From Mediterraneibacter catenae (GTDB taxonomy: Bacteria > Bacillota > Clostridia > Lachnospirales > Lachnospiraceae), in assembly GCF_008691045.1 (NCBI RefSeq), contig NZ_VMSO01000006.1, positions 1-64,000 of the forward strand: 64,000 bases of DNA. The letters are read 5' to 3'. The translations under genes were made by a program, and so were the position numbers. The notes beneath the pieces were generated by a model. The model saw only the letters and a list, made by a program, of their open reading frames with translations. It had not been told where the DNA came from and ran no database searches. Of the stretch, positions 3,663 through 42,358 are shown piece after piece (the first letter of the stretch is position 1; each line of letters begins with the position of its first letter).

Positions 3663-3827
3663 ACTGTGTTCACCTCTTGATAAATAATTATATAAATTTG
3701 TCCCCGCAATCCTGATGCTGACAAATTACTCTTTCTAATATTATGTATAAATCGCTGTTTTCTTACATACTCTATCATACATCATAACAGCCTGACGGTA
3801 TAAAACAAAAGGAGATAATGAGAACCT

Positions 3828-5984: not shown

Positions 5985-6011
5985 AATGTCTCCTTATTGT
6001 ACTTCCTGCTG

Positions 6012-6230
6012 TCAGTCTCTGACCTCACTTTTGTCGATCAGATCATACAGATCATACATGGAAAGCATGTTCTGATATGTCATTTTTCTCGCAAAAAGCT
6101 GCTGGTATGTCACTGACTTCATCTTGCCCCTTTCTTTTAGTTCATCCATCTCTCTGACGATGCTTCCATATTCCGTCTGCACTGCGGCAAGCATCTTTTC
6201 AAACTGTTCCAGACGTTTTTCATTATCCAT
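6012..6230 (-). CDS. small conserved hypothetical protein
   Basis: 72 residues, highly charged and helical (EKRLEQFEKMLAA at the start, ELKERGKMKSVTYQQLFARK in the middle). No known motif is recognised. It lies 6 bp after the stop of the MBL gene and 27 bp before the HAD gene on the same strand, so it is almost surely co-transcribed with both. A coding gene is supported by this tight packing rather than by homology. Confidence 0.65.
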   Translation of the reverse strand: MDNEKRLEQFEKMLAAVQTEYGSIVREMDELKERGKMKSVTYQQLFARKMTYQNMLSMYDLYDLIDKSEVRD

Positions 6231-6236
6231 GATTAT

Positions 6237-7049
6237 TTAATCCCCCAGCTCAATTGTTTCCAGATCATCCGGTACATATAGATTCCCGCAGAAATACCGT
6301 CCGCCCTCAGCAGTATATCTTTCCTTTCTCGTGCCCATATCCGAATCCTCCGTATGGTAAAGCACCAGGTTTTCCGCATGGAGCATTTCTGCTGCCGTAC
6401 ATGCGTCTTTTACTGTTGAATGATGCTTCTCATACGGATTATACTGTTCCGCTTCCGAATCAAGGCAGAACGCCTCGTGGAGCAGCCATTTGCATCCCTG
6501 CACATACATACGCTCCGATTCATTATAAGGCTCATCACCGCAGCAGACCAGTTTATCCGTTTTATTCAGATAGATTGCAAAGCCGTGCTGCTTTGTCTTT
6601 GTAGAATGTATATTGAAAAATGTCGTCTTATGACCGATGATCTCATACACGTCTCCGTCGCACACCGGGACAAAACGAATACGTTCCCCGATAAACTCCG
6701 CCTCTTTTTTCGAGAGGAGCATGTGCGACATATCGTCCAGGATACAGAGAACTTTTTTATGCCCGTATATTCGGACTTTTCCGTCGTAACGGCCGCGCTT
6801 CATCGCCTGAACCGCCATGCGGATCATCCACATAACGCCAAGGATATGATCCATATGCTTATGTGTGACGAAAATGTCATGAATATCCTGCCAGTCAATC
6901 CCGGCATCTTTGAGCTGCTTCAGGATTCCGCTGCCGCCCCCGCCGTCCACAAGGAAATGCCTGTTCTTATCACTGAGCACAAAACATGTATTGTAGCATT
7001 CTGTTACTACGGCTTTCCCGGTTCCGAGCATTGTCAGTTTCATCGCCAT
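6237..7049 (-). CDS. MBL-fold metallohydrolase, ribonuclease Z-like
   Basis: 270 residues. The metallo-beta-lactamase motif THKHMDH (H63, H65, D67, H68) follows a DGGGGSG strand-turn, and CCGDEP and LLHEAF fit later metal-ligand strands of the RNase Z/ElaC branch. Canonical RNase Z trims the 3' ends of tRNA precursors, but the length and divergence here also allow an unrelated phosphodiesterase. First gene of the run 7049 to 5142. Confidence 0.75.
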   Translation of the reverse strand: MAMKLTMLGTGKAVVTECYNTCFVLSDKNRHFLVDGGGGSGILKQLKDAGIDWQDIHDIFVTHKHMDHILGVMWMIRMAVQAMKRGRYDGKVRIYGHKKVLCILDDMSHMLLSKKEAEFIGERIRFVPVCDGDVYEIIGHKTTFFNIHSTKTKQHGFAIYLNKTDKLVCCGDEPYNESERMYVQGCKWLLHEAFCLDSEAEQYNPYEKHHSTVKDACTAAEMLHAENLVLYHTEDSDMGTRKERYTAEGGRYFCGNLYVPDDLETIELGD

Positions 7050-7148
7050 TCTCCTTTCTGCGTCAGATCTGTCATTCTATCCGGTATCAGTCTGTTTTCT
7101 GTCCGAGTCTTCCTGTGTTTGTCTCTCTGCAGCAAATACGGCACTTCG

Positions 7149-8525
7149 TCACCGTACATTTTCCGCGATCTCTCTTGCAACATACACTCCGCTCGCCGAA
7201 GCATGAGACAGCGAATGAGTTACACCGCTGCCATCTCCGATCACATAAAGACCTTTGTGGATTGTCTCAAGATGCTCATCGAGCTGTACCTCCATATTGT
7301 AGAACTTCACTTCCACACCGTAAAGCAGTGTATCGTCGTTGGCTGTACCGGGCGCAATTTTATCCAGCGCATATACCATCTCAATTATTCCGTCAAGAAT
7401 ACGCTTCGGAAGTACAAGGCTTAAGTCTCCCGGCTCCGCAGAGAGCGTCGGACGCACAAACCCTTCTTCAATCCTCTTTGCCGTACTCCTTCTGCCCCTG
7501 ATGAGATCCCCGAATCTCTGTACGAGAACTCCGCCTCCAAGCATATTGGAAAGCCGTGCGATACTCTCGCCGTATCCGTTGCTGTCTTTAAACGGCTCTG
7601 AGAAATGCTTCTCCACCAGCAGGGCAAAGTTCGTATTCTCTGTCTGTTTCGCAGGGTCTTCATAGCTGTGGCCGTTGACCGTAACAATACCGTTCGTATT
7701 CTCATTTACAACGATACCATAAGGATTCATACAGAATGTCCTTACTTTATCCTCAAATTTTTCCGTCCGGTATACGATCTTGCTCTCGTATAACTCATCT
7801 GTCAGGTGCGAGAATATCACTGCCGGAATTTCGACCCTCACGCCGATATCCACACGGTTGGATTTCGTCGGAATATCCAGTCCTTCGCAAATCTTCTCCA
7901 TCCATTTGCTGCCGCTTCTGCCCACAGACACAATACATTTCTCACATTCAGCTGTATCACCAGCACTTGTCACTCTGTAGCCTTTGTCAATTTTCTCAAG
8001 ACTGTCCACACGGCAGTTGAAATGAAACGCCACTTTTTCCTTTAATTCTTTGAAAATATTCTCCAACACGACATAATTAATGTCAGTTCCGAGATGGCGC
8101 ACCGAAGCATCCAGAAGTTTGAGTTTGTTCTGCATACAGAGCTTTTTGAATTTTGTCCCTGCTGTAGAATACATTTTCGTACCTTCTCCGCCATAGCGCA
8201 CATTGATCTCATCAACATAATGCATCAGGCTGATGGCAGTGTCCTTCCCTATATATTCATAGAGCGTGCCGCCGAAATCATTGGTGATATTATATTTTCC
8301 GTCTGAAAACGCTCCTGCACCGCCAAATCCGCTCATAATCGCACACGTCTTACAGTTAATACAGCTCTTTACCTTCTTTCCGTCAATCGGACATTTTCTC
8401 TTCTCCAGCGGATTCCCCGACTCGTATACCGCCACCTTAAGCCGGGGCGCTTTCTGCATCAGTTCATATGCCGCAAATATTCCGCCCGGTCCTGCTCCGA
8501 TAATGATTACATCATACTTATTCAT
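7149..8525 (-). CDS. NAD(P)/FAD-dependent oxidoreductase
   Basis: 458 residues. The N-terminal IIGAGPGGIFAAYEL (residues about 8-22) is a dinucleotide-binding GxGxxG fold, and YVIGDGSGVTHSL near the C-terminus is the second FAD contact. A cluster CPIDGKKVKSCINCKTC at about 45-61 is distinctive of the uncharacterised FAD-dependent dehydrogenase family; it could bind a metal or an iron-sulphur centre, but this is inference. Substrate and electron acceptor are unknown. A monocistronic unit, with an ATG start and no other in-frame option needed. Confidence 0.8.
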   Translation of the reverse strand: MNKYDVIIIGAGPGGIFAAYELMQKAPRLKVAVYESGNPLEKRKCPIDGKKVKSCINCKTCAIMSGFGGAGAFSDGKYNITNDFGGTLYEYIGKDTAISLMHYVDEINVRYGGEGTKMYSTAGTKFKKLCMQNKLKLLDASVRHLGTDINYVVLENIFKELKEKVAFHFNCRVDSLEKIDKGYRVTSAGDTAECEKCIVSVGRSGSKWMEKICEGLDIPTKSNRVDIGVRVEIPAVIFSHLTDELYESKIVYRTEKFEDKVRTFCMNPYGIVVNENTNGIVTVNGHSYEDPAKQTENTNFALLVEKHFSEPFKDSNGYGESIARLSNMLGGGVLVQRFGDLIRGRRSTAKRIEEGFVRPTLSAEPGDLSLVLPKRILDGIIEMVYALDKIAPGTANDDTLLYGVEVKFYNMEVQLDEHLETIHKGLYVIGDGSGVTHSLSHASASGVYVAREIAENVR

Positions 8526-8616
8526 CTATATTTTTCCTTTCCCACCGGCAGCGCTCTGCCTGCACAAATCTTCCGGTGCCTTCTCTATCTCATTATATTG
8601 ACGTCACGGATCTCAG

Positions 8617-9315
8617 CTATGATGCCTGCGGATTGTTCTGCACTGTACTTTCCTCGTGAAGCACTGCCTGTACAGCTTTCTTTGTCTTAGGCAGCCAGAA
8701 CTGTACCAGCGGACCTGTGAGAAACACTGCCACTACTGTGCCCGCTCCCACTGTGCCGCCCAGGATAAACCCAAGCACAACAAAGAACAGATCGCATCCC
8801 ACTCTCACCCAGCGGAACTGCACACGTTCGATCTTATCCGACAGGATAACCGCCACCAGATCGTTTGGCCCTGTGCCTGCATTGCTGTTGATCACGATCG
8901 ACATTCCTGCCGAAAGGATCACGCACCCGAGCACCATACTGACGATGCGTACAGCCATCTGTGCTTCGCCGTTTATATACTCTCCCAGTCCCCATGTGAA
9001 CAGATCAATAATCGGTCCGCCGCAGAAGGCACAAACTACCGTTCCCGGTTTCACATATCCTTTCGTCGTCAGGAGCATTACGATCATCAGGATGCACAGC
9101 ACAATCACATGCACTGTCCCAACCGTCAGGCCGAACACTCTGGACAATCCCTGGATAAATACTGTAAAAGTATCTGTTCCGAGTTCAGATAAGAGAAACA
9201 ATGTTACGCCAAGATGGGCAATCGTCAGTCCTATCAGAAGTATGATCAGCGCCTTGGCCCATCCGGCCGCGCTTCTCCCCGATGTATCCGAGGCAAATTT
9301 TTCTTTTTTTCCCAT
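8617..9315 (-). CDS. YczE/YitT-type integral membrane protein
   Basis: 232 residues from the ATG at 9315, which has GGAGG 11 bp upstream; a longer frame to 9363 would overlap the rubredoxin terminator and is less likely. Five to six membrane segments. The N-terminal LGVTLFLLSELGTDTF and GMSIVINSNAGTGPNDLV are the paired half-repeats of the YczE family (proteins of unknown transport function, seen next to Sfp in Bacillus). No substrate can be assigned. Confidence 0.75.
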   Translation of the reverse strand: MGKKEKFASDTSGRSAAGWAKALIILLIGLTIAHLGVTLFLLSELGTDTFTVFIQGLSRVFGLTVGTVHVIVLCILMIVMLLTTKGYVKPGTVVCAFCGGPIIDLFTWGLGEYINGEAQMAVRIVSMVLGCVILSAGMSIVINSNAGTGPNDLVAVILSDKIERVQFRWVRVGCDLFFVVLGFILGGTVGAGTVVAVFLTGPLVQFWLPKTKKAVQAVLHEESTVQNNPQAS

Positions 9316-9326
9316 ATCACAATTTT

Positions 9327-9350
9327 CCTCCGGGCGTATCGCACAAAAAA
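9327..9350. repeat. short sequence shared with 39081-39104
   Basis: CCTCCGGGCGTATCGC at 9327-9342 is identical to 39081-39096. In both places one variable base, then CAAAAAA, follows. In both places the A-run is the T-run of a minus-strand terminator, so the shared word begins exactly where transcription of the upstream gene should stop. Confidence 0.6.
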
Positions 9351-9391
9351 TCTGCCGCCCCATTCCTCCGCAAAGGTCCGTGGGACGGCAG
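9344..9391 (-). terminator. terminator of the rubredoxin gene
   Basis: On the minus strand CTGCCG (from 9391) pairs with CGGCAG (to 9352), with further TCCC/GGGG pairing inside, and is followed by ATTTTTTG. It separates the rubredoxin gene from the membrane protein downstream. Confidence 0.8.
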
Positions 9392-9417
9392 TCTTACTTC
9401 TTCTTATCAAGTGGGGA

Positions 9418-26542: not shown

Positions 26543-27070
26543 TTAAATTCCAGAAATTGTAAGATCCGCTTTCTCCAGTGTGAGAAGGCGGATTTTTTTA
26601 TCAACCCCGCCCGCATAACCGGTCATACTGCCGTCCGTACCGAGCACCCTGTGGCAGGGTACGATAATAGACACAGGGTTATGTCCCACCGCTCCTCCCA
26701 CCGCCTGGGCCGACATTGACTCAATCCCTCTCCGAGACGCAATCTCGCGCGCAATTTCCTTATAGGTCGTCGTCCGCCCGTAGGGAATCTCTAAAAGAAT
26801 CTCCCATACCGAATGACGGAACTCACTTCCCGTCAAATGCAGAGGCGGGGTAAAATCGGGCGCCTGGCCGTCAAAATAAAGATCCAGCCACTTTTTCGTC
26901 TGCTCCAGAACAGGCGGATTTTCTTTTGAATATTTGTATTTCATATCTCCTTTCAGTATCCCGCCGCCGAAATACTTCTGCCCGTCGAACCACAGACCGG
27001 TCAGCCCTTTCTCGTCACAGGCAAGCGTAATCCCGCCCAGCGGAGAATCATAGTGACAGATATCGTACAT
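26543..27070 (-). CDS. ogt: methylated-DNA--protein-cysteine methyltransferase
   Basis: 175 residues. IIVPCHRVLG carries the acceptor Cys in the PCHR motif, preceded by the helix-turn-helix YKEIAREIASRRG and the AVGGAVGHNPV loop. It removes alkyl groups from O6-guanine by suicidal transfer. Its last 17 codons overlap the plus-strand proB terminator hairpin, and the genes converge 21 bp apart. Confidence 0.93.
   Translation of the reverse strand: MYDICHYDSPLGGITLACDEKGLTGLWFDGQKYFGGGILKGDMKYKYSKENPPVLEQTKKWLDLYFDGQAPDFTPPLHLTGSEFRHSVWEILLEIPYGRTTTYKEIAREIASRRGIESMSAQAVGGAVGHNPVSIIVPCHRVLGTDGSMTGYAGGVDKKIRLLTLEKADLTISGI
26564..26599 (+). terminator. proB terminator lying inside the 3' end of ogt
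   Basis: ATCCGC (26564-26569) pairs with GCGGAT (26588-26593), with TTTCTC/GAGAAG pairing inside, then seven T residues. The hairpin is encoded within the last codons of the convergent ogt gene. Confidence 0.85.
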
Positions 27071-27085
27071 AAATTTTCTCTCCTT

Positions 27086-27331
27086 TTAACAATTTTTCAG
27101 AAATTTCTCTACAGCGTGGTTAAACTCTATGTAATTCTCCTTTGCGATAAAGTGTGTTCCACGCAGTATGCGGATCTGTGCATTCGGAAGACTCGCATAA
27201 ATAAGCCTTGTATGTTCGTCCTTTATCATATCTTTATTTCCAGCGATGACAAGTTTTTTTATTCTGACGAAGTCCGGCTCTTTATTTTCAACCAACTCCT
27301 CCGGACGGATATTCGGATCATTTTCGCCCAT
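27086..27331 (-). pseudogene. C-terminal remnant of an alpha/beta hydrolase
   Basis: An 81-residue frame whose NDPNIRPEEL, KKLVIAGNKDMI and RGTHFIAKEN are the last third of an alpha/beta hydrolase, including the acid (AGNKD) and His (GTHF) regions. The nucleophile elbow is not here but at the end of the neighbouring chimeric frame, in a different phase. About 50 residues that should lie between the two are missing, so an internal deletion plus frame change broke this gene. Confidence 0.75.
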
Positions 27332-28094
27332 TTAAAATAAGATGATCCACACGCTCCGGATATTTCAGCGCAAAGACAAGAGCAATATTCCCGCCGTCCG
27401 AAAAGCCCAGGATATGCGCTCCTTTTCCAGAACGAGAACGCTCTGTCAGGATATCCACTCCATAAATCCTGCAAATCTCGCGCAGAGCATTTACTTCTTC
27501 CCTCCAGAGTTCATCTGTATTGGCATAATCATCCCCATTCGTAGTATCATCATGATTGTCAAAATCAAATACAAGGAAATTGCAAGTCTCATCAGGCAGC
27601 ATCGGGTAGACGCCTATCACGTCCGAACAGTCTTCTCTTGCACCTGTCAAATGCTGCATGATCACTTTGCCTGTAAGCTCTTTGTAATGCTGTTCCGGGC
27701 AGTCTGCACATTTTATTTTCTTTTTTTCATATTTCGGACAAATACCCGGCTTCCAGTAATTCCAGCACTGCGTATAATATCCTGTTTTCCCGGTCTTAGG
27801 ATTCGGCTTTCCTGCTCTTTTACTGTATACATCTTTCCGTCCTTTGAAAAAAGAATAGAAATACTGGGCGTGCTTCTGAGTGATCGTTTCCGGGATGATA
27901 AATTGCTCCCTGACTGTTTCCGTTTCACTCATGACAGAATCCTTCTGCAGAGCAGCCGGTCTTTCCTTTTCCTGAATACCTTTTCCATAGGGAATACCTG
28001 CTTGGGACAAAAGTAACTGAAGGCGCTTAATTTCTTCATTTAATAAACATATTTCTTCTCTCTGTTCCTGAATGATCTTATCTTTATTATCCAT
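27318..28094 (-). pseudogene. chimera: TOTE-type primase N-terminus fused to an alpha/beta hydrolase fragment
   Basis: 258 codons. The first ~227 residues match the archaeo-eukaryotic-type primase domain of TOTE conflict-system proteins: N-terminal coiled coil (residues 1-30), GRKDVYSKRAGKPNPKTGK, a Cys cluster CWNYWKPGICPKY/CADCPEQH, then FLVFDFDNHDDT (acidic motif) and LTERSRSGKGAH. At 27413/27414 the sequence switches to ILGFSDGGNIALVFALKYPE, the nucleophile elbow of an alpha/beta hydrolase. The rest of the primase and its helicase are gone. A deletion joined two unrelated genes in frame. A folded primase half could still be made, but function is unlikely. Confidence 0.75.
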
Positions 28095-28113: not shown

Positions 28114-28940
28114 CTAAAAAGAAATGTTCTGTATAATTTTTCTCATATTCTTGATGGTATCCTCATAAGACACAAAATCTTCTGTAAAGTAGCTTGTAAT
28201 AGCTTGATAATCTTCTTCATAAAAAGAGTTGTCACAAAACTCCGTAATGACGTCAGACACATCTACTCCTTCCTTTGCAGACGGACATATCGACATTTCA
28301 GCCCGATGCTCCCGGATCTCTTTGATTTTCCCTGTATATAATAATCACAAAGCGCAAAAATCTTGTCAATATACGTTCTTTCAAGGGACTGTAGATTCAT
28401 TGAAAATCTGTCAAGGAAAAATTGTTCTGCAAGATCTTTTCTATTGTGATTTTCCAGATAATCTCCAATATAATTATGTATCTCTACTGACTGTGTCGGA
28501 AATGCATATGACCCCAATGCAGTTTCCAGCTTTATATACTGCGGCAGTCTTTCATCTTCCAGTTCAAATACAGAAGTATATGAAAAAAAATAAACGTTAT
28601 AGTCCCTGTCGCTCTGGGTTTCATTCCAGTTTGCAATCGGCATTTCCAGTTCTTCGCTTATTCCTTTTAAAACAACATTCTTAAGTTTTTTCCTTCTGCT
28701 CTCTCCTATATGCTCTTTGAAAGTAATATCAATATCTTCTGAAAAACGATTGATTACGTGATATCCTTTGGATAAAGATGTTCCCCCTTTAAAAACACAC
28801 AGATCGAGCTGCTCTGCCAATAATTTCAGAATCAGTGTAACATAGTAATCCTTTTCTACTACTATAGGTGTTCTTCCACTTTGCTCAGCAGTCTGTTCCA
28901 CCACGTCCTTAAACATTTCCCTATCCTTATGAAGATACAT
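28114..28940 (-). pseudogene. AbiEii-type nucleotidyltransferase toxin with internal deletion and frameshift
   Basis: The first frame (28263-28940) has the AbiEii core: EKDYYVTLIL, FKGGTSLSKGY and FSEDIDITF, the GGTSL and DxD nucleotidyltransferase motifs. After CDYYIQGK it shifts phase. The true C-terminal part continues in the other frame as IKEIREHRAEM, then CPSAKEGVDVSDVI to IIQNISF (stop at 28114). Roughly 25-40 residues expected between the two halves, including the usual His/Asp-rich helix, are missing. The family pyrophosphorylates or nucleotidylates tRNA; this copy is probably inactive or attenuated. Confidence 0.75.
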
Positions 28941-29457
28941 ACTCTACCTCCGTTTCATATATTGCTTTATATACCTTAATCGGATAATTTGCAATAATCA
29001 TATCAATCTTTTTCTTTGTAATAGCATTTTTCCTGGCAAATTCTGTCAAAATCTTTCCGCATTTTTCCGGTTCTAGCTCTGTGCATTTTTCAATATCCTT
29101 CAAACAGTCAAGAAACTGCAGCACCGGCGCATTTTCTTCCGTCACTTCCACCACTGGTCTTCTGATAATGTATTGCCTGTTTTTAATCGTCATTTTCCTT
29201 ACCAATGCCGGAGCAAAATTGCTGCTTATCTCCTGAGTAAACGGAACCTGCGTGGATAATCCCATGCGGTTTGCCAGTGTATAACCGGAATAGTACCCCA
29301 CCCGCTTTCCCCTGCGCATGATATACTTATGAACAGCTACTGTATCCGGGGACAAAGACATCCGCTCACCGAAAATATCCGTTTTAGGGAAATAGTATAC
29401 TCCCGGTTCAAATCGGCATATGGTTCCACTGTCAGCAAGTTTTTTTAAATGATGCAT
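28927..29457 (-). CDS. AbiEi-like antitoxin / transcriptional regulator
   Basis: 176 residues from the ATG at 29457, preceded by GGAGAGAAAAT; a GTG eight codons earlier is possible. CRFEPGVYYFPK belongs to the winged-helix region, and RVGYYSGYTLANRMGLSTQVP with the following strand is typical of the AbiEi/DUF6088 type IV antitoxins. About 20-25 residues present in relatives appear to be missing at the N-terminus. It overlaps the toxin gene by 14 bp. The antitoxin normally represses its own promoter through inverted repeats, and one is seen at 29505-29521. Confidence 0.7.
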   Translation of the reverse strand: MHHLKKLADSGTICRFEPGVYYFPKTDIFGERMSLSPDTVAVHKYIMRRGKRVGYYSGYTLANRMGLSTQVPFTQEISSNFAPALVRKMTIKNRQYIIRRPVVEVTEENAPVLQFLDCLKDIEKCTELEPEKCGKILTEFARKNAITKKKIDMIIANYPIKVYKAIYETEVEYVSS

Positions 29458-29494
29458 TATGATTTTCTCTCCATAATACACCTTTACAAAAAGA

Positions 29495-29543: not shown

Positions 29544-29927
29544 CTATAAATTTTTTATAAAATTCAAATCCTGTTTCCGTAATGCTTTCTGCAGTTTTTC
29601 ATTCGCTTTTTTCAGTTCTCTGTTTTCTCTGGTCAGAGCTGTTACTTTCTGGTTCAGCAGTTCAATTTGTTTTTCCATCGCCATGTTCAGGTTTTCTCTT
29701 CTTGGATCAATCATCCCTGCCTGTTGCTCTATCGCCTCGTTCATCGTATCCCGGACAATTGGATTTTTATAGAAGAATCCTCTGGACAGTCCGGTTTTCT
29801 TCATCAGTTTCGGAACGCTGATACGTTCTTTATTTGATATCATGTCTTGTATTGTACGTTGTGCCAGTTCAATTTTTTCTTTACTTTTTTTCTGATTTTC
29901 TTCAATCATCTTGTCGTATTTGTTCAT
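29544..29927 (-). CDS. Tn554 TnpC-like / DUF6262 transposon protein
   Basis: 127 residues from the ATG at 29927 (GGGGTGAAGAAT upstream). ISVPKLMKKTGLSRGFFYKN is a helix-turn-helix and the C-terminal 60 residues are a coiled coil (LLNQKVTALTRENRELKKAN). This is the small third gene of Tn554-type transposons, which travels with two tyrosine recombinases. Its start overlaps the 3' end of the recombinase remnant, the original operon arrangement. Intact by itself, but its partners are gone. Confidence 0.8.
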   Translation of the reverse strand: MNKYDKMIEENQKKSKEKIELAQRTIQDMISNKERISVPKLMKKTGLSRGFFYKNPIVRDTMNEAIEQQAGMIDPRRENLNMAMEKQIELLNQKVTALTRENRELKKANEKLQKALRKQDLNFIKNL

Positions 29928-30069
29928 ATTCTTCACCCCATCCAGCCAGACTCTTATAAATAATATCACTCATCATCTGCCGTACTTCTCTGGTTTCATC
30001 TGCCATTTGCTGATTGCTCATTTTGCGATAATGCTTTACACTCGATACTCTCTTATGTCCGAGAATCAT
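29902..30069 (-). pseudogene. C-terminal end of a Tn554-type tyrosine recombinase
   Basis: About 55 codons remain: ILGHKRVSSVKHYRKMSNQQ is the last conserved block of a tyrosine recombinase (LGH..., with the nucleophile Tyr in KHYRK), followed by a helical tail. Upstream of it the frame is closed at once, so the catalytic domain is deleted. It overlaps the start of the TnpC-like gene. Confidence 0.75.
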
Positions 30070-30223: not shown

Positions 30224-31036
30224 TTACTCTGCTTTTGCCTTTGCCATCGTAGCAATATCTCCCACACCATTTAAAACCAAAGTTGGACGATATGCATAAG
30301 TTTTAAGTGTATCTTTCGTTGAGCATCCTGAGAGAACCAATACAGTAGACATACCACTTTCCATACCTGAAATCACATCTGTATCCATGCGGTCCCCAAC
30401 CATTACTGCTTCTGCGGAATGACATCCAAGCATATTTAAACCTGTTCGCATCATCAATGGATTCGGTTTCCCACAGAAATATGCCTGTGTGCCTGTTGCC
30501 ATTTCTATAGGTGCAACCAATGCACGACAAGCAGGAGCAATGCCGTTCTCAATCGGTCCGGAAACATCTGAGTTTGCTCCGATCAGCTTTGCACCTTTCA
30601 GAACCAAATTCGTTGCTTTTGTTAATGTATCCAATGAATAGGATCGTCCCTCTCCCACAACAACATAATCCGGATTCACATCATTCATTGTGATACCTAC
30701 ATCATAAAGTGCATTTAACAGACCGGCTTCTCCTATCACAAATGCTGAACATCCTGCCGCCTGTTCTTTTAAAAAAGCTGCTGTTGCCAATGCACTGGTA
30801 TAAAAATGTTCTTCCGACACATCAAGTCCCATCCTTGCCAGTTTCTGATTTAATTCCCGTGGTGTATACCCGCTATTATTTGTCAAAAATAAGTATTCCT
30901 TCTTTTCATCATGTAACCACTGAATGAATTCTGGAACACCTGGCAATATCTGATTGCCATGATAAATCACACCATCCATATCGCAGATAAACCCTTTTTT
31001 CTCGTTAAAATCAATTATGGAATTTCCCATATTCAT
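30224..31036 (-). CDS. HAD-IIA (NagD-like) sugar phosphatase
   Basis: 270 residues from the ATG at 31036 (AGGCAGGGC upstream); the 25 extra codons to 31111 lack a site. ICDMDGVIYHG is motif I, LFLTNNSG motif II, and VMVGDRMDTDV motif IV, with the C2A cap between, typical of NagD and p-nitrophenyl phosphatases. It dephosphorylates nucleotides or sugar phosphates. It sits next to the lactose module and may share its transfer history. Confidence 0.85.
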   Translation of the reverse strand: MNMGNSIIDFNEKKGFICDMDGVIYHGNQILPGVPEFIQWLHDEKKEYLFLTNNSGYTPRELNQKLARMGLDVSEEHFYTSALATAAFLKEQAAGCSAFVIGEAGLLNALYDVGITMNDVNPDYVVVGEGRSYSLDTLTKATNLVLKGAKLIGANSDVSGPIENGIAPACRALVAPIEMATGTQAYFCGKPNPLMMRTGLNMLGCHSAEAVMVGDRMDTDVISGMESGMSTVLVLSGCSTKDTLKTYAYRPTLVLNGVGDIATMAKAKAE

Positions 31037-31192
31037 ATATGCCCTGCCTTTCTTTTTCTTTAGAGTACGCCTTGTTCTTTTACTTCTGAAAAATCTATTT
31101 TCTACGACCATTGTAATATCGTATCATACGCACATAAAATCAAATACATAACGGCGTGAAATCAAAGTAAATTATTCTATCAGCAGAACCTT

Positions 31193-31993
31193 TTATGACA
31201 ATATATCTTTTACACATGTACTCCGATAGTCACTAGGCGATATTTTATATCTTTCCTTAAATACCCGGTTAAATGTTCTCTGACTTTCAAAGCCACTATC
31301 CAGGCAAATATTTGTAATAGAATCACTCGTATTTTCCAAACGATGACATGCGTAGTTGAGCCTTGCATCGTTAAGATACTGGTTGAAATTCCTATGAAAT
31401 GTTTTGGAAAAGAGTCTGGATAAGACATATTTGCTTACTCCAAGGTCTTTCGCCATCTCTTCCAGTGAAAGCTTCTTTTTGAAATTTGCTGATATATAGG
31501 AAACCGTCTGGTAAATAAGGTCATTGCTCCCCACATGGCTCTTCTCTACCAGATTCAGTTTTCCTATGCAGCGTGCCAACACAATTTGAAGATAAGCCTG
31601 TGCGACTGTAATATCCGACTGTTCTGTCTCTAAGATCGCATTGATAACCCTATATACCTCCGGCTCAACCTTTTCCGCTTTGATAACTGGATATTCAGGA
31701 GCCATGGACTGCATGATATCTGCAAATTTACCAATCGTAAAGGGCGATGCGATCAGATAAGTCGCTTTATTTACACCGGGTGTCAGTACCTGATAGTGAT
31801 GAATAATATCCGGAAATACAAAGCCTATATCTCCTTTTTCCATATGGTAAAGTTCCTGTCCGACACCAAGCTCTAATGTTCCACTTGTTACACAAACAAT
31901 CTCCAGTGCATTATGAAGATGTGGTTCAATATGTTTTGACTTTTTATTTACTGCTATGATCTCCTCTTTTGTGTCAACATATTTTAACTGCAT
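31193..31993 (-). CDS. AraC-family regulator with cupin sensor domain
   Basis: 266 residues from the ATG at 31993 (AGGGGAGTATTT upstream); the longer frame to 32110 lies over the divergent promoter. An N-terminal cupin with HIEPHLHNALEIVCV binds ligand, and the C-terminal 100 residues carry two helix-turn-helix units (MAKDLGVSKYVLSRLFSKTF and ICLDSGFESQRTFNRVFKER). It probably controls the lactose genes or the divergent peptide gene. Confidence 0.87.
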   Translation of the reverse strand: MQLKYVDTKEEIIAVNKKSKHIEPHLHNALEIVCVTSGTLELGVGQELYHMEKGDIGFVFPDIIHHYQVLTPGVNKATYLIASPFTIGKFADIMQSMAPEYPVIKAEKVEPEVYRVINAILETEQSDITVAQAYLQIVLARCIGKLNLVEKSHVGSNDLIYQTVSYISANFKKKLSLEEMAKDLGVSKYVLSRLFSKTFHRNFNQYLNDARLNYACHRLENTSDSITNICLDSGFESQRTFNRVFKERYKISPSDYRSTCVKDILS

Positions 31994-32064
31994 GAAATAC
32001 TCCCCTTTGCAACATTTGTCTATATCTTCTTTCGATTTGGCAAGCAATCCTTTTTCATCTATCC

Positions 32065-32094
32065 TATAATCAACTTGTAAACAAGGAAAGGAGG
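32065..32094 (+). promoter_or_regulatory. -10 box and ribosome site of the 25-residue peptide gene
   Basis: TATAAT at 32065-32070 has no clear -35 at 17 bp, which fits a promoter needing an activator such as the divergent AraC protein. AAAGGAGG at 32087-32094 is 8 bases before an ATG. Confidence 0.55.
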
Positions 32095-32102
32095 AATCGC
32101 AA

Positions 32103-32180
32103 ATGAGCAATCTTAAAAAATATCTGAACGACCTTTTAGTATTCTACGCTGACTATTTTGAGCATCCATATCATGTATAA
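32103..32180 (+). CDS. 25-residue peptide gene
   Basis: MSNLKKYLNDLLVFYADYFE followed by HPYHV and a stop. It has an excellent ribosome site, a TATAAT upstream and a strong plus-strand terminator 45 bp downstream, which together argue for a real transcription unit although it is far too short for usual ORF calling. The peptide is aromatic-rich, without a signal sequence. It is divergent from an AraC regulator. Function is not recognised: a regulatory leader peptide or a small intracellular protein are both possible. Confidence 0.55.
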   Translation: MSNLKKYLNDLLVFYADYFEHPYHV

Positions 32181-32191
32181 ATACTAAAAGG
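32132..32191 (+). repeat. 12-bp perfect inverted repeat around the peptide stop codon
   Basis: CCTTTTAGTATT (32132-32143) and AATACTAAAAGG (32180-32191) are exact reverse complements. In the transcript they would enclose the second half of the peptide coding region in a 36-base loop, so translation of the peptide would disrupt the stem. Confidence 0.7.
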
Positions 32192-32222
32192 ACTATTTTG
32201 TGAAAACTGAATATTTTTTCTT

Positions 32223-32258
32223 AAGACCATTTCACAAAAATGAAGTGGTCCTTTTTTT
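32223..32258 (+). terminator. terminator of the peptide transcript
   Basis: GACCATTTCA pairs with TGAAGTGGTC with one mismatch, followed by C and seven T residues on the plus strand. It has no matching T-run on the minus strand, so it serves plus-strand transcription. Its T-run touches the stop of the next gene. Confidence 0.8.
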
Positions 32259-32493
32259 ATAAACTTTCAATAAATCTTTTGAATGCAGCTTTCCCTTCCT
32301 CTGTTCTCTTATAAACTCCTGCATCCTCCAGGACTTTCGTAAATACAATCCCAATTTCTTTCTGTACGATAGAATGAATATTACTGTCTGTAATCTCGTA
32401 TTTTGGCATCCATTCCTCTGCCCAGTCAGCATGGGCAGCCATCCCGTTAAGCATTCCAATTGCTTCTTCTATATTCAAAATACTGTCCCCCAC
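32257..32493 (-). CDS. small hypothetical protein in the lactose module
   Basis: 78 residues: MGDSILNIEEAIGMLNGMAA at the start, then DWAEEWMPKYEI and EDAGVYKRTEEGKAAFKRFI. Mostly helical and soluble, no family recognised. It lies just downstream of the GPH symporter gene, separated by a strong hairpin, and may be read at a low level after it. Coding status is supported by amino acid composition and context only. Confidence 0.5.
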   Translation of the reverse strand: MGDSILNIEEAIGMLNGMAAHADWAEEWMPKYEITDSNIHSIVQKEIGIVFTKVLEDAGVYKRTEEGKAAFKRFIESL

Positions 32494-32523
32494 TCTTTTG
32501 CCTGTTTCATTGTTTCATAATAT

Positions 32524-32569
32524 GTAAAAGCATTGTCTAATTGAAGATTCAATCAGACAATGCTTTTAC
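32524..32569 (-). terminator. hairpin after the GPH symporter gene
   Basis: GTAAAAGCATTGTCT (32524-32538) pairs perfectly with AGACAATGCTTTTAC (32555-32569), with ATTGA/TCAAT pairing in the loop. It starts 10 bp after the symporter stop. T-runs are short, so it may also protect the mRNA end. Confidence 0.75.
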
Positions 32570-32578
32570 CTTCAAATT

Positions 32579-33976
32579 TTACTCCATGTCTGATGCATCT
32601 GTTACTTCATCTGCAGTGATTCCTTTTTCTGCTTTCAGTTTCTTATTTGCACCTTCTACATTCATTCTTGAAAGTACAAACATAATCAATACATCAAAGA
32701 TTAATGGAAGCCACAGATACATAAACTGCATCATATCAAGTGCGGACTGTGGCTGAGTTGCATTTGTTCCAACGTAACCACTGAAATCAAGCATCCATCC
32801 AACAACAGCCGTTCCAATACCTCCACCGATCTTTACACCAAGAGACGTACAAGAGTACATAGTTCCGTCAATTCTCTTTCCCTGTGTAAGATAAGTGTAT
32901 TCAGAGCAGGATGCGATAACCGCATTCATATCTCCCTGCCATGGTCCCTGTCCTAATGCTGCAAGAGCCGTAAATGCCATCATCAGCGGAACGCTACCCA
33001 TATATCCGGCAACAACAACAAGTGCTCTACCGATAACTGCTAAGATATAACCTCTTAAGTTCAGTTTGTACATACCTTTCCACTTACCAACTAAAGTTGG
33101 TGTGAAAATCAAAGCAATGATCAGTGGAATATTAACTGCCCATGCAAACTGTCCGAACAAGTTTTTGTTTTTCAGTACCCATGTCATGTAATAAATACCG
33201 GCTCCAATCATGGCACTGTATAACTGCTGTAAAATGTAAGTTCCACAGATCATCATGTAATATTTGTTTTTGATAAGAAGCTTAAATGCCTGTGCCATTC
33301 CGTACTTCTCATCCTCATTTTTTACTCCCCCTTCGTTAAGTTCCTCTTCTGGAAGTTCTTTAACAGAAAGAGCAGAAATTGTATTTACAATAAGACCAAT
33401 AATTGCATAAATAATTGCTACAGTTCTCCATGCAGCTGCATCTCCACCACACTTATCTACAAATCCAACTGTAATTGCCTGAATCAGAAGGCTTGTTAAA
33501 AATGCAAAAATGAAACGGTATGATCCCATCTGCACACGTTCTTTGCTGTTCTTTGTGATGAGTGATGTAAGTGCTGAATATGCAATATTATTAGCTGTAT
33601 AAAACACACCATTTAACAGTGTATAAGAAATAAAGAACCATGCATATTTAGCGGTTGTTCCCCAGCTGACTGGTACTGCAAAACAGCAGACTAATGTAAT
33701 GGCACATCCAATATAGCCATATAACATCCAAGGCTTTGCTTTTCCCATTTTGCTGTGTGTTTTGTCGATCATTGATCCAAAGAATATATCTGTAAAACCA
33801 TCAATTAATTTTGATACGGCAATCAGGGTACCTACGACACCAGCAGCAAGTCCTACTGAGTCTGTCAAATAGACCATCATAAAAGATGTCAGGAACGCAT
33901 AGACTACATTACCTGCGATATCACCTGAACCATATCCAATTTTGTTATACCATTTTAAATACTTTTTTTCTTCCAT
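32579..33976 (-). CDS. GPH-family sugar:cation symporter
   Basis: 465 residues, 12 membrane segments, opening LKWYNKIGYGSGDIAGNVVY and with FFGSMIDKTHSKMGKAKPWM, the conserved loop of glycoside-pentoside-hexuronide symporters (MelB/LacS class). It has no C-terminal IIA domain, unlike LacS. Being upstream-adjacent to a GH2 beta-galactosidase, it most likely brings in lactose or another galactoside. Two GATGCCTAA direct repeats lie upstream. Confidence 0.87.
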   Translation of the reverse strand: MEEKKYLKWYNKIGYGSGDIAGNVVYAFLTSFMMVYLTDSVGLAAGVVGTLIAVSKLIDGFTDIFFGSMIDKTHSKMGKAKPWMLYGYIGCAITLVCCFAVPVSWGTTAKYAWFFISYTLLNGVFYTANNIAYSALTSLITKNSKERVQMGSYRFIFAFLTSLLIQAITVGFVDKCGGDAAAWRTVAIIYAIIGLIVNTISALSVKELPEEELNEGGVKNEDEKYGMAQAFKLLIKNKYYMMICGTYILQQLYSAMIGAGIYYMTWVLKNKNLFGQFAWAVNIPLIIALIFTPTLVGKWKGMYKLNLRGYILAVIGRALVVVAGYMGSVPLMMAFTALAALGQGPWQGDMNAVIASCSEYTYLTQGKRIDGTMYSCTSLGVKIGGGIGTAVVGWMLDFSGYVGTNATQPQSALDMMQFMYLWLPLIFDVLIMFVLSRMNVEGANKKLKAEKGITADEVTDASDME

Positions 33977-34019
33977 AGAATTCTTTTGCTCCTCATATTC
34001 ATCGCACTTAGAATCTCAA

Positions 34020-34043
34020 GATGCCTAACAGTATGATGCCTAA
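34020..34043. promoter_or_regulatory. direct repeats upstream of the symporter gene
   Basis: GATGCCTAA occurs at 34020-34028 and again at 34035-34043, a 15-bp period. Tandem direct repeats between the symporter and beta-galactosidase genes are what AraC-type activators usually bind. The role is inferred. Confidence 0.35.
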
Positions 34044-34146
34044 TTCTAAATTTTTTTGCTTTGTTTTTGTCTGATTGTTCTGTATATCCGGACTTTACAA
34101 AACACCCAGACTCTCCTTCCTTGTTAACGGGTTACTTAAAACTTTA

Positions 34147-37251
<3,105 letters not shown>

Positions 37252-37297
37252 TTACTTTTTTGTTTACGTTTCTTTGTTTTTCTATACATAGCTTATC

Positions 37298-37357
37298 CTA
37301 ATCCGCAAAATATGTCTATGAATTGGATTAGACAAAATATGCACTAAATGATACAAT
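37298..37357. promoter_or_regulatory. divergent regulatory region between lacZ and araC
   Basis: CTAATCC (37298-37304) and GGATTAG (37325-37331) are inverted; CAAAATATG occurs at 37306-37314 and 37333-37341 as a direct repeat. TTAGAC (37328-37333) and TACAAT (37352-37357), 18 bp apart, form a likely promoter for the AraC gene. The repeats are candidate AraC half-sites. Confidence 0.5.
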
Positions 37358-37387
37358 GGTAAAAAGTAGGAAAAGAGGTGCTGCCCT

Positions 37388-38251
37388 ATGTATATGAATA
37401 CTGGTTATCTGAACCACTCCCATATGGATTTCAAAGACAAAAGTCGCCCACTGATTGTAGGAAGCTGTGGTACTTATCGCCTTTCCAGCCATCCAAAATT
37501 ACCAACCTACCGTCCAAGGGGACGCCTGGATTATCAGATCATCTATATCACCGCTGGTTGTGGGCATTTTCATTTTGGCAATGTAGGTAACGAAACGATT
37601 GTTCCCGCCGGTAATATTGTGCTGTACAGACCGAAGGAACTTCAGAAATATGAATATTATGGGGAAGATAAGACAGAAGTATACTGGATTCATTTTACAG
37701 GCAGCAATGTTAAAAATATCTTGCGTCAGTATGGATTTCCGGATAAAGAACGGGTTTTCCAAGTTGGCACATCTATGGAATATGAACGGGTTTTTAAGCG
37801 TATTATCATCGAACTCCAACGCTGTCAGGATGATTATGAGGAAATGCTTGTTCTTCTGCTTCGTCATCTACTAATCACTTTCCACCGAGAACTGACACGA
37901 GAACATATCCTGAAAAACGAATACCTGGATCAGGAAATGAACACTGCAGTTACCTATTTCAGCGAAAATTATAATCAGGACATCAACATAGAGGATTACG
38001 CAGCCTCACGAGGCATGAGTGTCAGTTGGTTTATCCGGAATTTCAAAAAATACACCGGTTCCACACCAATGCAATTCATCGTAGGAATCCGGATCAACAA
38101 TGCTCAGATGTTACTTGAAACAACAACCTATTCCATCAATGAAATCTCTAAAATCGTCGGATATGATAACCAGCTGTATTTCAGTCGGCTTTTTCACAAG
38201 CTGAAAGGATATTCACCGAGAGAATACCGAAAACTGAGAAACAAATTCTGA
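37388..38251 (+). CDS. AraC-family regulator of the lactose module
   Basis: 287 residues. An N-terminal cupin-like sensor (DYQIIYITAGCGHFHFGN, PAGNIVLYRPKELQ) precedes two C-terminal helix-turn-helix units (YAASRGMSVSWFIRNFKKYT and ISKIVGYDNQLYFSRLFHKL). The gene is divergent from lacZ over about 200 bp, so it most probably activates lacZ and the symporter in response to a sugar. AGAGGTG precedes the ATG. Confidence 0.9.
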   Translation: MYMNTGYLNHSHMDFKDKSRPLIVGSCGTYRLSSHPKLPTYRPRGRLDYQIIYITAGCGHFHFGNVGNETIVPAGNIVLYRPKELQKYEYYGEDKTEVYWIHFTGSNVKNILRQYGFPDKERVFQVGTSMEYERVFKRIIIELQRCQDDYEEMLVLLLRHLLITFHRELTREHILKNEYLDQEMNTAVTYFSENYNQDINIEDYAASRGMSVSWFIRNFKKYTGSTPMQFIVGIRINNAQMLLETTTYSINEISKIVGYDNQLYFSRLFHKLKGYSPREYRKLRNKF

Positions 38252-38259
38252 AATCCACA

Positions 38260-38307
38260 AAGAGGATACCACCGAATCATCAAAACAATGATTTGTGATA
38301 TCCTCTT
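38260..38307 (+). terminator. terminator of the AraC gene
   Basis: AAGAGGATA (38260-38268) pairs with TATCCTCTT (38299-38307), with AATCAT/ATGATT nested inside. It lies 8 bp after the stop codon. The T-run is weak. Confidence 0.65.
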
Positions 38308-38309
38308 CG

Positions 38310-38595
38310 CACTTTTGCTAAGCTGTATAATGGTGGAGCAATTGGTATATCGGCTTCCTTTCTTGGACTTCGCGTCCGTAAAACAGACTGATAACCAGCT
38401 CCTCATTCGCAGCGTTCGTTTTATGCAGGTTGAATCGTCGTAGACGCATTCGTGTCACACCACAGTAGATTGAATAGGCAATGAGTAAAACTGGCACTTA
38501 TCCATTGCAATAATCTTAAGGAGTGACAAATTTATGAACGCAGTAGGTATCGATGTTTCTAAGGGTAAAAGTATGGTTGCTATCATGCGGCCTTT
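38310..38595 (+). mobile_element. 5' end of an IS110-family element with its non-coding leader
   Basis: About 220 non-coding bases (38310-38533) precede an IS110 transposase start. In this family the leader between the left end and the recombinase gene encodes the bridge RNA that guides recombination; the small stem GGAC-TTCGC-GTCC and other pairings here fit a structured RNA. The element is cut off at about 38594 after 20 transposase codons, so it cannot move. Confidence 0.65.
38534..38594 (+). pseudogene. IS110 transposase, first 20 codons only
   Basis: MNAVGIDVSKGKSMVAIMRP is the RuvC-like start of IS110 DEDD transposases, with the first catalytic Asp in GIDVSK. AGGAGTGACAAATTT precedes the ATG. 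After the RP codons the sequence leaves the IS and enters an unrelated gene fragment on the opposite strand. Confidence 0.8.
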
Positions 38596-38960: not shown

Positions 38961-39097
38961 ATCGGGTAGGGGAAGCTTCCTTCCCCTACCCGATCACCGC
39001 GATACCTCGCTCATCTCACGGCATTGCCGCTCGATGACCGTTGCCCGTCGGATGCCCGCTCGTGCAAGCACGGCGGTCGCCCTCCGGGCGTATCGCG
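38961..39097. other. G+C-rich structured segment, probable mobile-element scrap
   Basis: The stretch 38800-39157 has no gene. ATCGGGTAGGGGAA (38961-38974) pairs with TTCCCCTACCCGAT (38981-38994), and CGCGATAC (38998-39005) with GTATCGCG (39090-39097). On the minus strand an open stretch of about 34 codons reads YARRATAVLARAGIRRATVI and on to ERQCREMSEVSR before a stop. The base composition is unlike the A+T-rich lactose module beside it. Origin from a conjugative element is suspected but unproven. Confidence 0.45.
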
Positions 39098-39104
39098 CAA
39101 AAAA
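39081..39104. repeat. second copy of the short repeat at 9327-9350
   Basis: CCTCCGGGCGTATCGC is identical to the copy at 9327-9342 and is likewise followed, after one variable base, by CAAAAAA, the T-run of the minus-strand carB terminator. Confidence 0.6.
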
Positions 39105-39143
39105 AAGAGGATGCCGCACATGATATGCAATATCCTCTTTTTC
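39098..39143 (-). terminator. carB terminator
   Basis: AAGAGGAT (39105-39112) pairs with ATCCTCTT (39132-39139). On the minus strand eight T residues follow; on the plus strand TTTTT follows, so it can work in both directions. Confidence 0.8.
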
Positions 39144-39157
39144 TGTGTCCGCTATTT

Positions 39158-42100
39158 CTAAACCGTCGCGATATCGATTAACGTCAGCTTCTTAATATCC
39201 GTATTCTCAAGACTTGTGATCAGTGCTTCCGCAGTATCAATTGCCGTCAGCACGTTGACCCCCGTCTCGATAGCATTTCTTCGGATAACAAAACCGTCTT
39301 TGGAGTGTTCTGCTCCCTGTGCCGGGATATCAATAACAAGATCGATCTTATGTCCTAAAATCAAGTCAAGAAGATTCGGTGACTCCTGCTCGATCTTACG
39401 CACAGGTGTTGCCTTTACTCCCGCCTCCTTAAGTGCTCTTGCTGTTCCGCTCGTAGCAAAGATATGGTAGCCGATATCTGCGAATCTGCGGCCGATCTCC
39501 ACTGCAGCCGGATGTTCCTCATCACGGACGGTCATGATCATGTTCTTGAACTTCGGCAGCTTGATCCCCGCGCCGAGGAATGCCTTATAGAGAGCCTCAT
39601 CAAATGTCTTAGCGATACCAAGGCACTCTCCGGTAGACTTCATCTCCGGTCCGAGACTGATATCTGCGCCTCTGATCTTCTCAAAGGAGAATACCGGCAT
39701 CTTCACCGCCACGTAGTCCGCCTCAGGCTGCAGTCCCGGCGTGTATCCAAGATCTTTTATCTTCTTCCCGATTATGACCTGTGTCGCCAGCGGCACGATC
39801 GGAATTCCCGTCACTTTGCTGATATACGGTACAGTACGGCTGGAACGCGGATTAACCTCAATTACATACACATCGTCCTCGCCGCAGACAATGAACTGAA
39901 TATTGATCATACCGATAACATGAAGAGATTTTGCAAGCCTTCTCGTATATTCTGCAATCTTTGTCTTTGCGCTCTCTGTCAGGCTCTGTGCCGGATAAAC
40001 GGAGATACTGTCTCCTGAATGGATACCTGCGCGCTCTATATGCTCCATGATGCCCGGGATCAGAATATCCGTGCCGTCGCACACGGCATCGACTTCGATC
40101 TCCTTACCCTGCAGGTATTTATCCACGAGGATCGGATGGTCCTGGGCGATCCGGTTGATAATACCGATGAACTGGTCGATGTCATTATCATTGATAGCGA
40201 TCTGCATGCCCTGTCCGCCAAGCACGTAGGACGGACGCACGAGCACCGGATAACCGAGACGGTTTGCCACTTCTTTCGCTTCTTCTGCTGTGAATACGGT
40301 ACCGCCGGTCGGACGCGGAATCCCGCACTCTTCAAGGATCTCGTCAAAGAGCTCCCTGTCTTCAGCCTTGTCCACGTTCTCCGCGGAAGTTCCGAGGATC
40401 GGAACACCCATCTTCATAAGCGCTTCTGTCAGCTTGATAGCTGTCTGACCGCCGAACTGTACGACTGCACCGTCCGGTTTCTCGATATCCACGATGCTCT
40501 CCACATCTTCCGGTGTGAGCGGTTCAAAATACAGCTTATCCGCAATATCGAAATCTGTACTTACGGTCTCCGGGTTATTGTTGACGATGATCGTCTCATA
40601 TCCTTCTTTGGCGAATGCCCAGGTACAGTGTACGGAGCAGAAGTCGAACTCGATACCCTGACCGATACGGATCGGGCCGGATCCAAGCACGAGAACTTTC
40701 TTCTTGCCCTCTGTTTTCTCCACTTCGTTCTCACTGCCGTATACAGAATAATAGTAAGGCGTCTCCGCCGCAAATTCTGCCGCGCATGTGTCCACGATCT
40801 TGTACGCCGCAACGATACCGTTTTCATGGCGCATATCATGGATCTCCCGCTCGCTCTTTCCTGTCAGACGTGCGATCACATTGTCCGGGAACTCGATACG
40901 TTTTGCTTCTCTTAAGAGATCAACTGTCAGTTCCTGAGTTTTTAACGCGTTCTCCATCTCCACTATAATGGCGAATTTGTCAATGAACCATTTATCTACT
41001 TTTGTGATATTGTAGATCGTATCGTAGTCGATGCCCCTGCGGATTGCCTCTGCGATCTTCCACATACGCATATCGTCTACTATAGCAAGCTGCTCTAAAA
41101 GGTCGTCCCTGGAAAGCCCTGTAAAGTCATAGGACATAAGGCTGTCCACATGCTGCTCGAGGGAGCGGATTGCTTTCATCAGCGCGCCCTCAAAGTTATC
41201 GCAGATACTCATAACCTCACCGGTAGCCTTCATCTGCGTTGTCAGCGTCCTCTTTGCACTGATAAATTTATCAAAAGGCAGACGCGGAAGTTTTACGACT
41301 ACATAGTCAAGCATCGGCTCGAAGCTTGCGTATGTCTTCTGCGTAATGGCATTCTTTATCTCATCCAGTGTATAGCCCAGTGCAATCTTTGCGGAAACTT
41401 TTGCGATCGGATAACCCGTAGCCTTAGAGGCCAGAGCGGAGGAACGGCTTACTCGGGGATTCACCTCGATAACGCAGTATTCAAACGTATCCGGATTCAG
41501 CGCGTACTGCACGTTGCATCCGCCTGTGATATTCAGCTCACTGATGATATTCAATGCTGAAGTACGGAGCATCTGGTACTCCTTATCTCCCAATGTCTGT
41601 GACGGAGCCACGACGATACTGTCTCCGGTGTGGACGCCTACAGGATCGATATTTTCCATATTACATACAGTAATGCAGTTACCCGCACTATCGCGCATTA
41701 CCTCATACTCAATCTCTTTCCATCCTGCGATGCAGCGCTCCACAAGAACCTGTCCCACACGGGAGAGACGGAGACCATTCTCCAGGATCTCTACGAGCTG
41801 ATGTGAGTCATGGGCGATACCGCCGCCGCTGCCACCCAGTGTATATGCGGGACGGAGCACGACCGGGTAACCGATCTTATTGGCGAATGCAAGACCGTCG
41901 TCCACACTCTCCACGACGAGAGAAGCTGCGACAGGTTCGCCGATCTTCTCCATTGTCGCCTTGAATTCCAGACGGTCCTCAGCCTTTTTGATCGTCTCCG
42001 ATGTCGTTCCGATCAGGCGTACGCCGTTCTCGCGCAGGAATCCTGCCTCTTCAAGCTCCATGGCAAGATTCAGCCCTGCCTGTCCGCCGAGAGTAGGAAG

Positions 42101-42358
42101 CACACTGTCCGGCTTTTCTTTCTTGATAAGCTGCTCTACCACTTCCACGGTAAGGGGCTCAATGTATACACTGTCCGCGATATCTTTATCTGTCATGATG
42201 GTCGCCGGGTTTGAATTCAACAGTACGACCTCAATACCTTCTTCTTTGAGTGAACGGCATGCCTGAGTTCCCGCATAGTCAAACTCCGCCGCCTGTCCGA
42301 TGACGATCGGACCGGAACCGATGACCAGTACCTTCTTAATACTTAAATCTCTTGGCAT
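39158..42358 (-). CDS. carB: carbamoyl-phosphate synthase large chain
   Basis: 1066 residues, full length. Two homologous ATP-grasp halves (KVLVIGSGPIVIGQAAEFDY near residue 10 and KVLVLGSGPIRIGQGIEFDF near 560) make carboxyphosphate and carbamoyl phosphate. The C-terminal allosteric MGS-like domain begins around 940 (FATSGTARALKEAG). Its ATG shares one base with the carA stop (TAATG), so translation is coupled. The product feeds pyrimidine and arginine synthesis. Confidence 0.97.
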   Translation of the reverse strand: MPRDLSIKKVLVIGSGPIVIGQAAEFDYAGTQACRSLKEEGIEVVLLNSNPATIMTDKDIADSVYIEPLTVEVVEQLIKKEKPDSVLPTLGGQAGLNLAMELEEAGFLRENGVRLIGTTSETIKKAEDRLEFKATMEKIGEPVAASLVVESVDDGLAFANKIGYPVVLRPAYTLGGSGGGIAHDSHQLVEILENGLRLSRVGQVLVERCIAGWKEIEYEVMRDSAGNCITVCNMENIDPVGVHTGDSIVVAPSQTLGDKEYQMLRTSALNIISELNITGGCNVQYALNPDTFEYCVIEVNPRVSRSSALASKATGYPIAKVSAKIALGYTLDEIKNAITQKTYASFEPMLDYVVVKLPRLPFDKFISAKRTLTTQMKATGEVMSICDNFEGALMKAIRSLEQHVDSLMSYDFTGLSRDDLLEQLAIVDDMRMWKIAEAIRRGIDYDTIYNITKVDKWFIDKFAIIVEMENALKTQELTVDLLREAKRIEFPDNVIARLTGKSEREIHDMRHENGIVAAYKIVDTCAAEFAAETPYYYSVYGSENEVEKTEGKKKVLVLGSGPIRIGQGIEFDFCSVHCTWAFAKEGYETIIVNNNPETVSTDFDIADKLYFEPLTPEDVESIVDIEKPDGAVVQFGGQTAIKLTEALMKMGVPILGTSAENVDKAEDRELFDEILEECGIPRPTGGTVFTAEEAKEVANRLGYPVLVRPSYVLGGQGMQIAINDNDIDQFIGIINRIAQDHPILVDKYLQGKEIEVDAVCDGTDILIPGIMEHIERAGIHSGDSISVYPAQSLTESAKTKIAEYTRRLAKSLHVIGMINIQFIVCGEDDVYVIEVNPRSSRTVPYISKVTGIPIVPLATQVIIGKKIKDLGYTPGLQPEADYVAVKMPVFSFEKIRGADISLGPEMKSTGECLGIAKTFDEALYKAFLGAGIKLPKFKNMIMTVRDEEHPAAVEIGRRFADIGYHIFATSGTARALKEAGVKATPVRKIEQESPNLLDLILGHKIDLVIDIPAQGAEHSKDGFVIRRNAIETGVNVLTAIDTAEALITSLENTDIKKLTLIDIATV

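Follow-up and report, generated by a model that had tools for sequence, protein, structure and literature searches.

Gene Content of the Locus

The window analyzed here, a stretch of 64,000 nucleotides from Mediterraneibacter catenae, contains on its minus strand an open frame of 258 codons that starts with an ATG at 28094 and closes with a TGA ending at 27318. An earlier note had read this frame as a fusion of a TOTE-system primase with an alpha/beta hydrolase, changing family abruptly after the motif SGKGAH; the plus-strand reading of the same interval is not the frame that the note meant. Features of the locus, together with related features in other genomes, are summarized in Table 1.

Table 1. 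Features of the chimeric frame, its surroundings, and the related element ends. Coordinates are those of the window unless a locus handle precedes them.
Feature	Coordinates	Strand	Basis
ogt-type methyltransferase gene, intact chromosomal flank	26543–27070	-	Pfam, relatives' gene order
Hydrolase C-terminal fragment, residues ~174–250, in a frame other than the chimera's	27086–27322	-	ORFs, orthologue alignment
Chimeric open frame, 258 aa, pseudogene fusion	27318–28094	-	ORF list and Pfam
Second scar: cap region shortened by ~167–182 bp, a length not divisible by 3, frame shifted	27322–27327	-	orthologue alignments
Alpha/beta-hydrolase nucleophile-elbow fragment, 31 codons, residues ~81–111 of 251	27327–27419	-	orthologue alignment
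Junction: 9-bp GCGCATATC common to both parents, Ala-His-Ile in both frames	27411–27419	-	parent alignments
5′ remnant of AEP-TOTE primase-helicase gene, first ~227 of ~1,028 codons	27411–28094	-	locus alignments, Pfam
abiEii, type IV toxin-like nucleotidyltransferase, frameshifted by 83-bp deletion at repeated TCAAAGAG (about 28316–28325)	28114–28940	-	Pfam, alignments
abiEi-like (DUF6088), first 27 codons lost	28927–29469	-	Pfam, alignments
TnpC-like DUF6262 gene, Tn554-type recombination element, E 6.2e-43	29544–29969	-	Pfam
Tyrosine recombinase gene, C-terminal remnant; L105 homologue matches Phage_integrase	29970–30065	-	
lac cargo: HAD phosphatase, AraC regulator, GPH transporter, LacZ, AraC regulator	30224–38406	.	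genome matches
carB, chromosomal flank; 0.7–1.3 kb from hydrolase gene in relatives	39158–42358	-	
Element right end and flavodoxin 3′ fragment	L031:4645–4817, 9076–9353; L033:9133–9398; L034:4359–4632; L064:1835–2110; L105:8329–8621; L114:3693–3963		

The domain searches proposed in the note, on residues 1–227 and 228–258, matched AEP-TOTE and Abhydrolase_1, and the abrupt change of family is borne out both by these Pfam matches and by orthologues. Residues 76–229 match AEP-TOTE (PF22548) with E 9.5e-40 and 137 bits, against a gathering cut-off of 27. The match is incomplete, covering profile positions 3–131 of 230 and cut in mid-domain, whereas the full parent covers 3–228. Residues 226–256 match Abhydrolase_1 (PF00561; E 2.8e-5, profile positions 71–101 of 245), with a score that falls below the gathering score because so little of the hydrolase remains. 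The identity of this tail is unambiguous because of its orthologue matches: AHILGFSDGGNIALVFALKYPERVDHLILNG matches the L050 orthologue without a difference (100% identity) and two further ones at 94–97%. The families switch directly after SGKGAHI, and hydrolase sequence runs on past the stop of the chimera, in another reading frame, as far as 27086.

In relatives, carA-carB is followed within 0.7–1.3 kb by the hydrolase gene, ogt, and proB. The corresponding interval of the window, from the end of carB at 39158 to the start of the hydrolase remnant at 27419, holds 11.7 kb of inserted DNA. This island is a mosaic, the pieces of which are 97–99% identical to unlinked loci of other species: abiE-TOTE in L110, tnpC and the recombinase C-terminus in L105, and the lac cluster in L106, L107, L108, and L113. 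The island is built from the remains of elements resembling Tn554 (TnpC/DUF6262), with AbiE, TOTE, and lac genes as their cargo; we take DUF6262 to correspond to the TnpC of Tn554. Only the C-terminus of the recombinase is left, and the window retains neither the right-end motif of these elements nor a flavodoxin fragment that would mark the original insertion site. Near the carB side, 38207–38560 matches L102 and holds the start of a transposase frame that presumably is IS110-like. A repeat of ~145 bp (38961–39105) occurs in several copies in this genome and is shared by most genomes of the genus, with 75–98% identity. Two thrE-like genes lie between carB and the hydrolase gene in L050 and L051; the idea that the junction deletion had removed them was dropped, as L058, for example, lacks them at that position.

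The genes directly upstream of the TOTE gene, both here and in L031–L033, correspond to the AbiE type IV toxin-antitoxin pair (PF08843, DUF6088), with the difference that both window copies are damaged, and an intact AbiEi plus AbiEii is not present in the window. In abiEii, the missing 83 bp lay between two TCAAAGAG repeats, and their loss is out of frame; abiEi is joined at 29469 to sequence that lies downstream of tnpC in L105. Elsewhere in this genome (L111:6173–7721, contig C62), another AbiE pair, apparently of full length, stands without a TOTE gene.

Parental Genes of the Two Parts

Full-length parents of both parts, which the earlier note had suggested seeking in related genomes, were found there. 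TOTE parents in relatives are 1,009–1,057 aa long, and the remnant shares 95–99% DNA identity with those in L031, L032, and L033. The L033 parent (6001–9087; Claveliimonas bilis c-25, complete genome) has 1,028 aa, with AEP-TOTE at 76–326, ResIII/DEAD at 504–663, Helicase_C at 735–839, and PLDc_2 at 907–1022. The alignment covers its codons 1–231, about 227 of them before the switch, in agreement with the ~227 primase residues that the note had counted as surviving. Residues 1–231 are 97% identical, and the Cys cluster, FDFDNH, and SGKGAH are found in both proteins. The window copy differs in lacking residues 232–1028, so that its primase domain is cut halfway and no helicase or PLD domain follows; ~40 positions after residue 231 that are near-invariant in an alignment of 16 homologues are all missing from the chimera.

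TOTE denotes a combination of TPR, OB, TBP, and Effector (PMC12458937); this definition was used, and we found no paper in the literature that defines TOTE by a primase effector. TPR-OB/CSD and TBP genes were seen neither beside the window copy, whose neighbors are AbiE and DUF6262, nor among the scanned neighboring ORFs of the intact copies (AbiE, flavodoxin, MNT-HEPN, Fic, AAA-DUF4143, and others). The "TOTE-system" label given earlier thus stands at the level of the AEP-TOTE domain only.

The hydrolase parent, which has ~250–275 aa in relatives (251 aa in one of them), is located beside ogt and proB. Compared with the Lachnospiraceae hydrolases of L050, L055, and L058, the window copy has the same neighbors, and the identity is 94–100% over the 31 residues of the elbow and 76–80% over the C-terminal segment. 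It differs in lacking ~80 N-terminal residues and ~62 residues of the cap, and in its broken frame. The cap deletion (residues ~112–173) amounts to 182 bp relative to L055 and L058 and 167 bp relative to L050 and L051, out of frame in either case, and shifts the hydrolase frame 31 codons after the junction. The full alpha/beta-hydrolase fold has the oxyanion region, nucleophile elbow, acid, and His in one frame; here the N-terminus is gone, the C-terminus lies in another frame, and the elbow alone is in frame.

The Junction and Its Reading Frame

Homology to TOTE stops at 27411 in 10 of the 10 closest homologues, and homology to the hydrolase orthologues stops at 27419–27429. The parents read ...GGAGCGCATATCTGGATG... 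(TOTE) and ...AGGGCGCATATCCTGGGC... (hydrolase) at this point, and have GCGCATATC in common; among the four hydrolase orthologues shown, two depart from it by one base. When TOTE and hydrolase breakpoints were paired at random in a simulation, 0.011% of the pairs had at least 9 bp in common.

The earlier note was right that the fusion retains the frame, which is open across the junction. However, GCGCATATC encodes AHI in the same frame of both parents, so the frame is preserved automatically and its keeping needs no selection. Since the openness of the frame follows from the recombination site, the argument drawn from it in the note carries little weight.

Origin and Status of the Chimeric Frame

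The chimeric frame is almost certainly a deletion scar, an ordinary pseudogene fusion in a decaying mobile island and not a gene; in it, the start of a primase gene of phage-defense type runs into the interior of a housekeeping hydrolase gene. A mobile cargo unit of abiEi, abiEii, and the TOTE-AEP helicase, stacked by a Tn554-like element with the lac cluster, would have arrived between carB and the chromosomal hydrolase gene, upstream of the latter and in the same orientation. The GCGCATATC copy at TOTE codons 226–228 would then have been joined to the copy at the AHI codons of the hydrolase gene by a deletion that removed the last ~800 TOTE codons, the end of the element, and the first ~80 hydrolase codons, merging the two frames. 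Further deletions, probably at short homologies, cost the hydrolase its cap, abiEii 83 bp, and abiEi its first codons; replication slippage or microhomology-based joining could account for all of these losses.

What counts against reading the locus as a scar is the frame being open across the junction with its start codon kept. The same two features would suit a hybrid that is translated and functional, for instance as a shortened primase that still binds nucleic acid, a decoy, or a dominant-negative product. So would the zinc-type Cys cluster and the DxD and SxH-type motifs, all still present, and the lack of excess non-synonymous change: dN/dS of the TOTE fragment is ~0.14–0.21 against the intact or near-intact copies of L031–L033, compared to 0.12–0.24 among those copies, although there are only 9–13 codon differences. 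On that number of differences, dN/dS reveals no relaxed selection or sequence decay inside the fragment; the break may simply be recent, or the test too weak. Against function, half of the AEP domain and the whole of the helicase and PLD domains are gone, the hydrolase contributes a mere 31 codons, the fusion has no homologue, and the adjoining abiE genes are likewise broken. We give a functional hybrid only a very small chance; a working protein appears very unlikely, and any peptide that is made would probably be inactive. The earlier suggestion that a hybrid may be translated finds no support in the sense of a product that matters, as both halves are broken and GCGCATATC explains the retained frame.

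The assembly is a draft of 63 contigs, which would allow a sequencing or assembly artefact to have joined unrelated contigs. Misassembly is unlikely because 9 bp in common is far below assembly overlaps and because this genome has no second copy of either parent. The C-terminus of the hydrolase is, moreover, followed by ogt-proB in the conserved order, and several deletions of the same type lie alongside; we therefore regard an artefact as highly improbable.

The earlier note held that homologues with the same two-part architecture over their full length would make this a real family. They were looked for, and none were found: the fusion is in no other genome among 146 relatives (protein search), the genomes of 84,980 species that were scanned, and 397 genomes of the family, searched with a junction pattern of 35 bases allowing up to 3 mismatches. 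Plasmids gave no match, and phages gave one unannotated, distant TOTE homologue (42% identity) and nothing else. Three viral contigs that match an 18-mer of the junction were rejected as kin, as they encode no relative. An inherited two-domain family of primase N-terminus plus hydrolase has the open frame in its favor and nothing further; with no second member in any of these three genome sets, and no relative encoded on the viral contigs, it is scarcely credible.

As a deletion scar, then, the frame does not matter as a gene, and we caution against annotating it as a TOTE-domain protein; it serves as an example of an in-frame "chimera" produced by a short-homology deletion.

Flavodoxin-Associated Elements in Relatives

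More interesting than the chimera itself is the position of these elements in relatives, where they sit within flavodoxin genes; the surrounding island suggests that such genes may repeatedly serve as integration targets for small defense-carrying units in gut Lachnospiraceae. In L031, L033, L034, L064, L105, and L114, a right end of sequence ...TTAAGCCCAGTAAAATCAAGG...CCTCCGGTTTA, or one closely similar to it, recurs; it is followed by flavodoxin coding sequence that begins at the codon Tyr-Pro-Ile/Asn-Trp and makes up the 3′ portion of the gene. In L113, the lac element has a matching flavodoxin 5′ half at its opposite end. In L033, abiE-TOTE is flanked by an intact flavodoxin gene on its upstream side (3591–4190) and by a stranded flavodoxin 3′ fragment on its downstream side (9174–9398), which suggests that the abiE-TOTE unit may bring a replacement flavodoxin 3′ end. 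Taken from their sequences, these arrangements point to the flavodoxin codon as a probable recurrent integration site for Tn554-like elements and for recombinase-less cargo units (Fic, AbiE-TOTE, MNT-HEPN, and the lac cluster).

We tentatively raise the possibility, short of an even chance, that the DNA around the scar is left over from a family of site-specific elements that seems not to have been described before. Members of such a family would use a TnpC of the Tn554 kind and as many as three tyrosine recombinases, target a single flavodoxin codon (before TyrProIleTrpTrp), have a right end of ~60 bp in common, bring a replacement flavodoxin 3′ end, and stack as tandem units that hold either defense-type cargo (Fic, AbiE-TOTE helicase, MNT-HEPN) or a lac cluster, some of them recombinase-less. 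A limited literature search found no description of flavodoxin-site elements of this kind, which is weak evidence of novelty. Tn554 itself, we assume, has its own unique site, radC. The likeness to Tn554-type transposons (TnpA/TnpB tyrosine recombinases plus TnpC; PMC3414803) lies in the DUF6262/TnpC-like gene of the window, which stands beside a recombinase C-terminus, and in the related locus L114, which has three Phage_integrase-type tyrosine recombinases and DUF6262. In contrast to those transposons, the related elements here sit in flavodoxin genes, and the copy in the window no longer has its recombinase genes or its ends.

Cargo of these types recurs in other genomes in varying condition. 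The lac cluster is 98–99% identical across several species of the genus, a level of identity that points to recent horizontal spread. Decayed TOTE copies occur in relatives too, with ~350 aa remaining in L110 and 22 aa in L112. At L042:4952–4962, abiEii (codons 1–198) is joined to TOTE from codon ~104 with an overlap of ~11 bp, the mark of a deletion that arose independently within this cargo unit.
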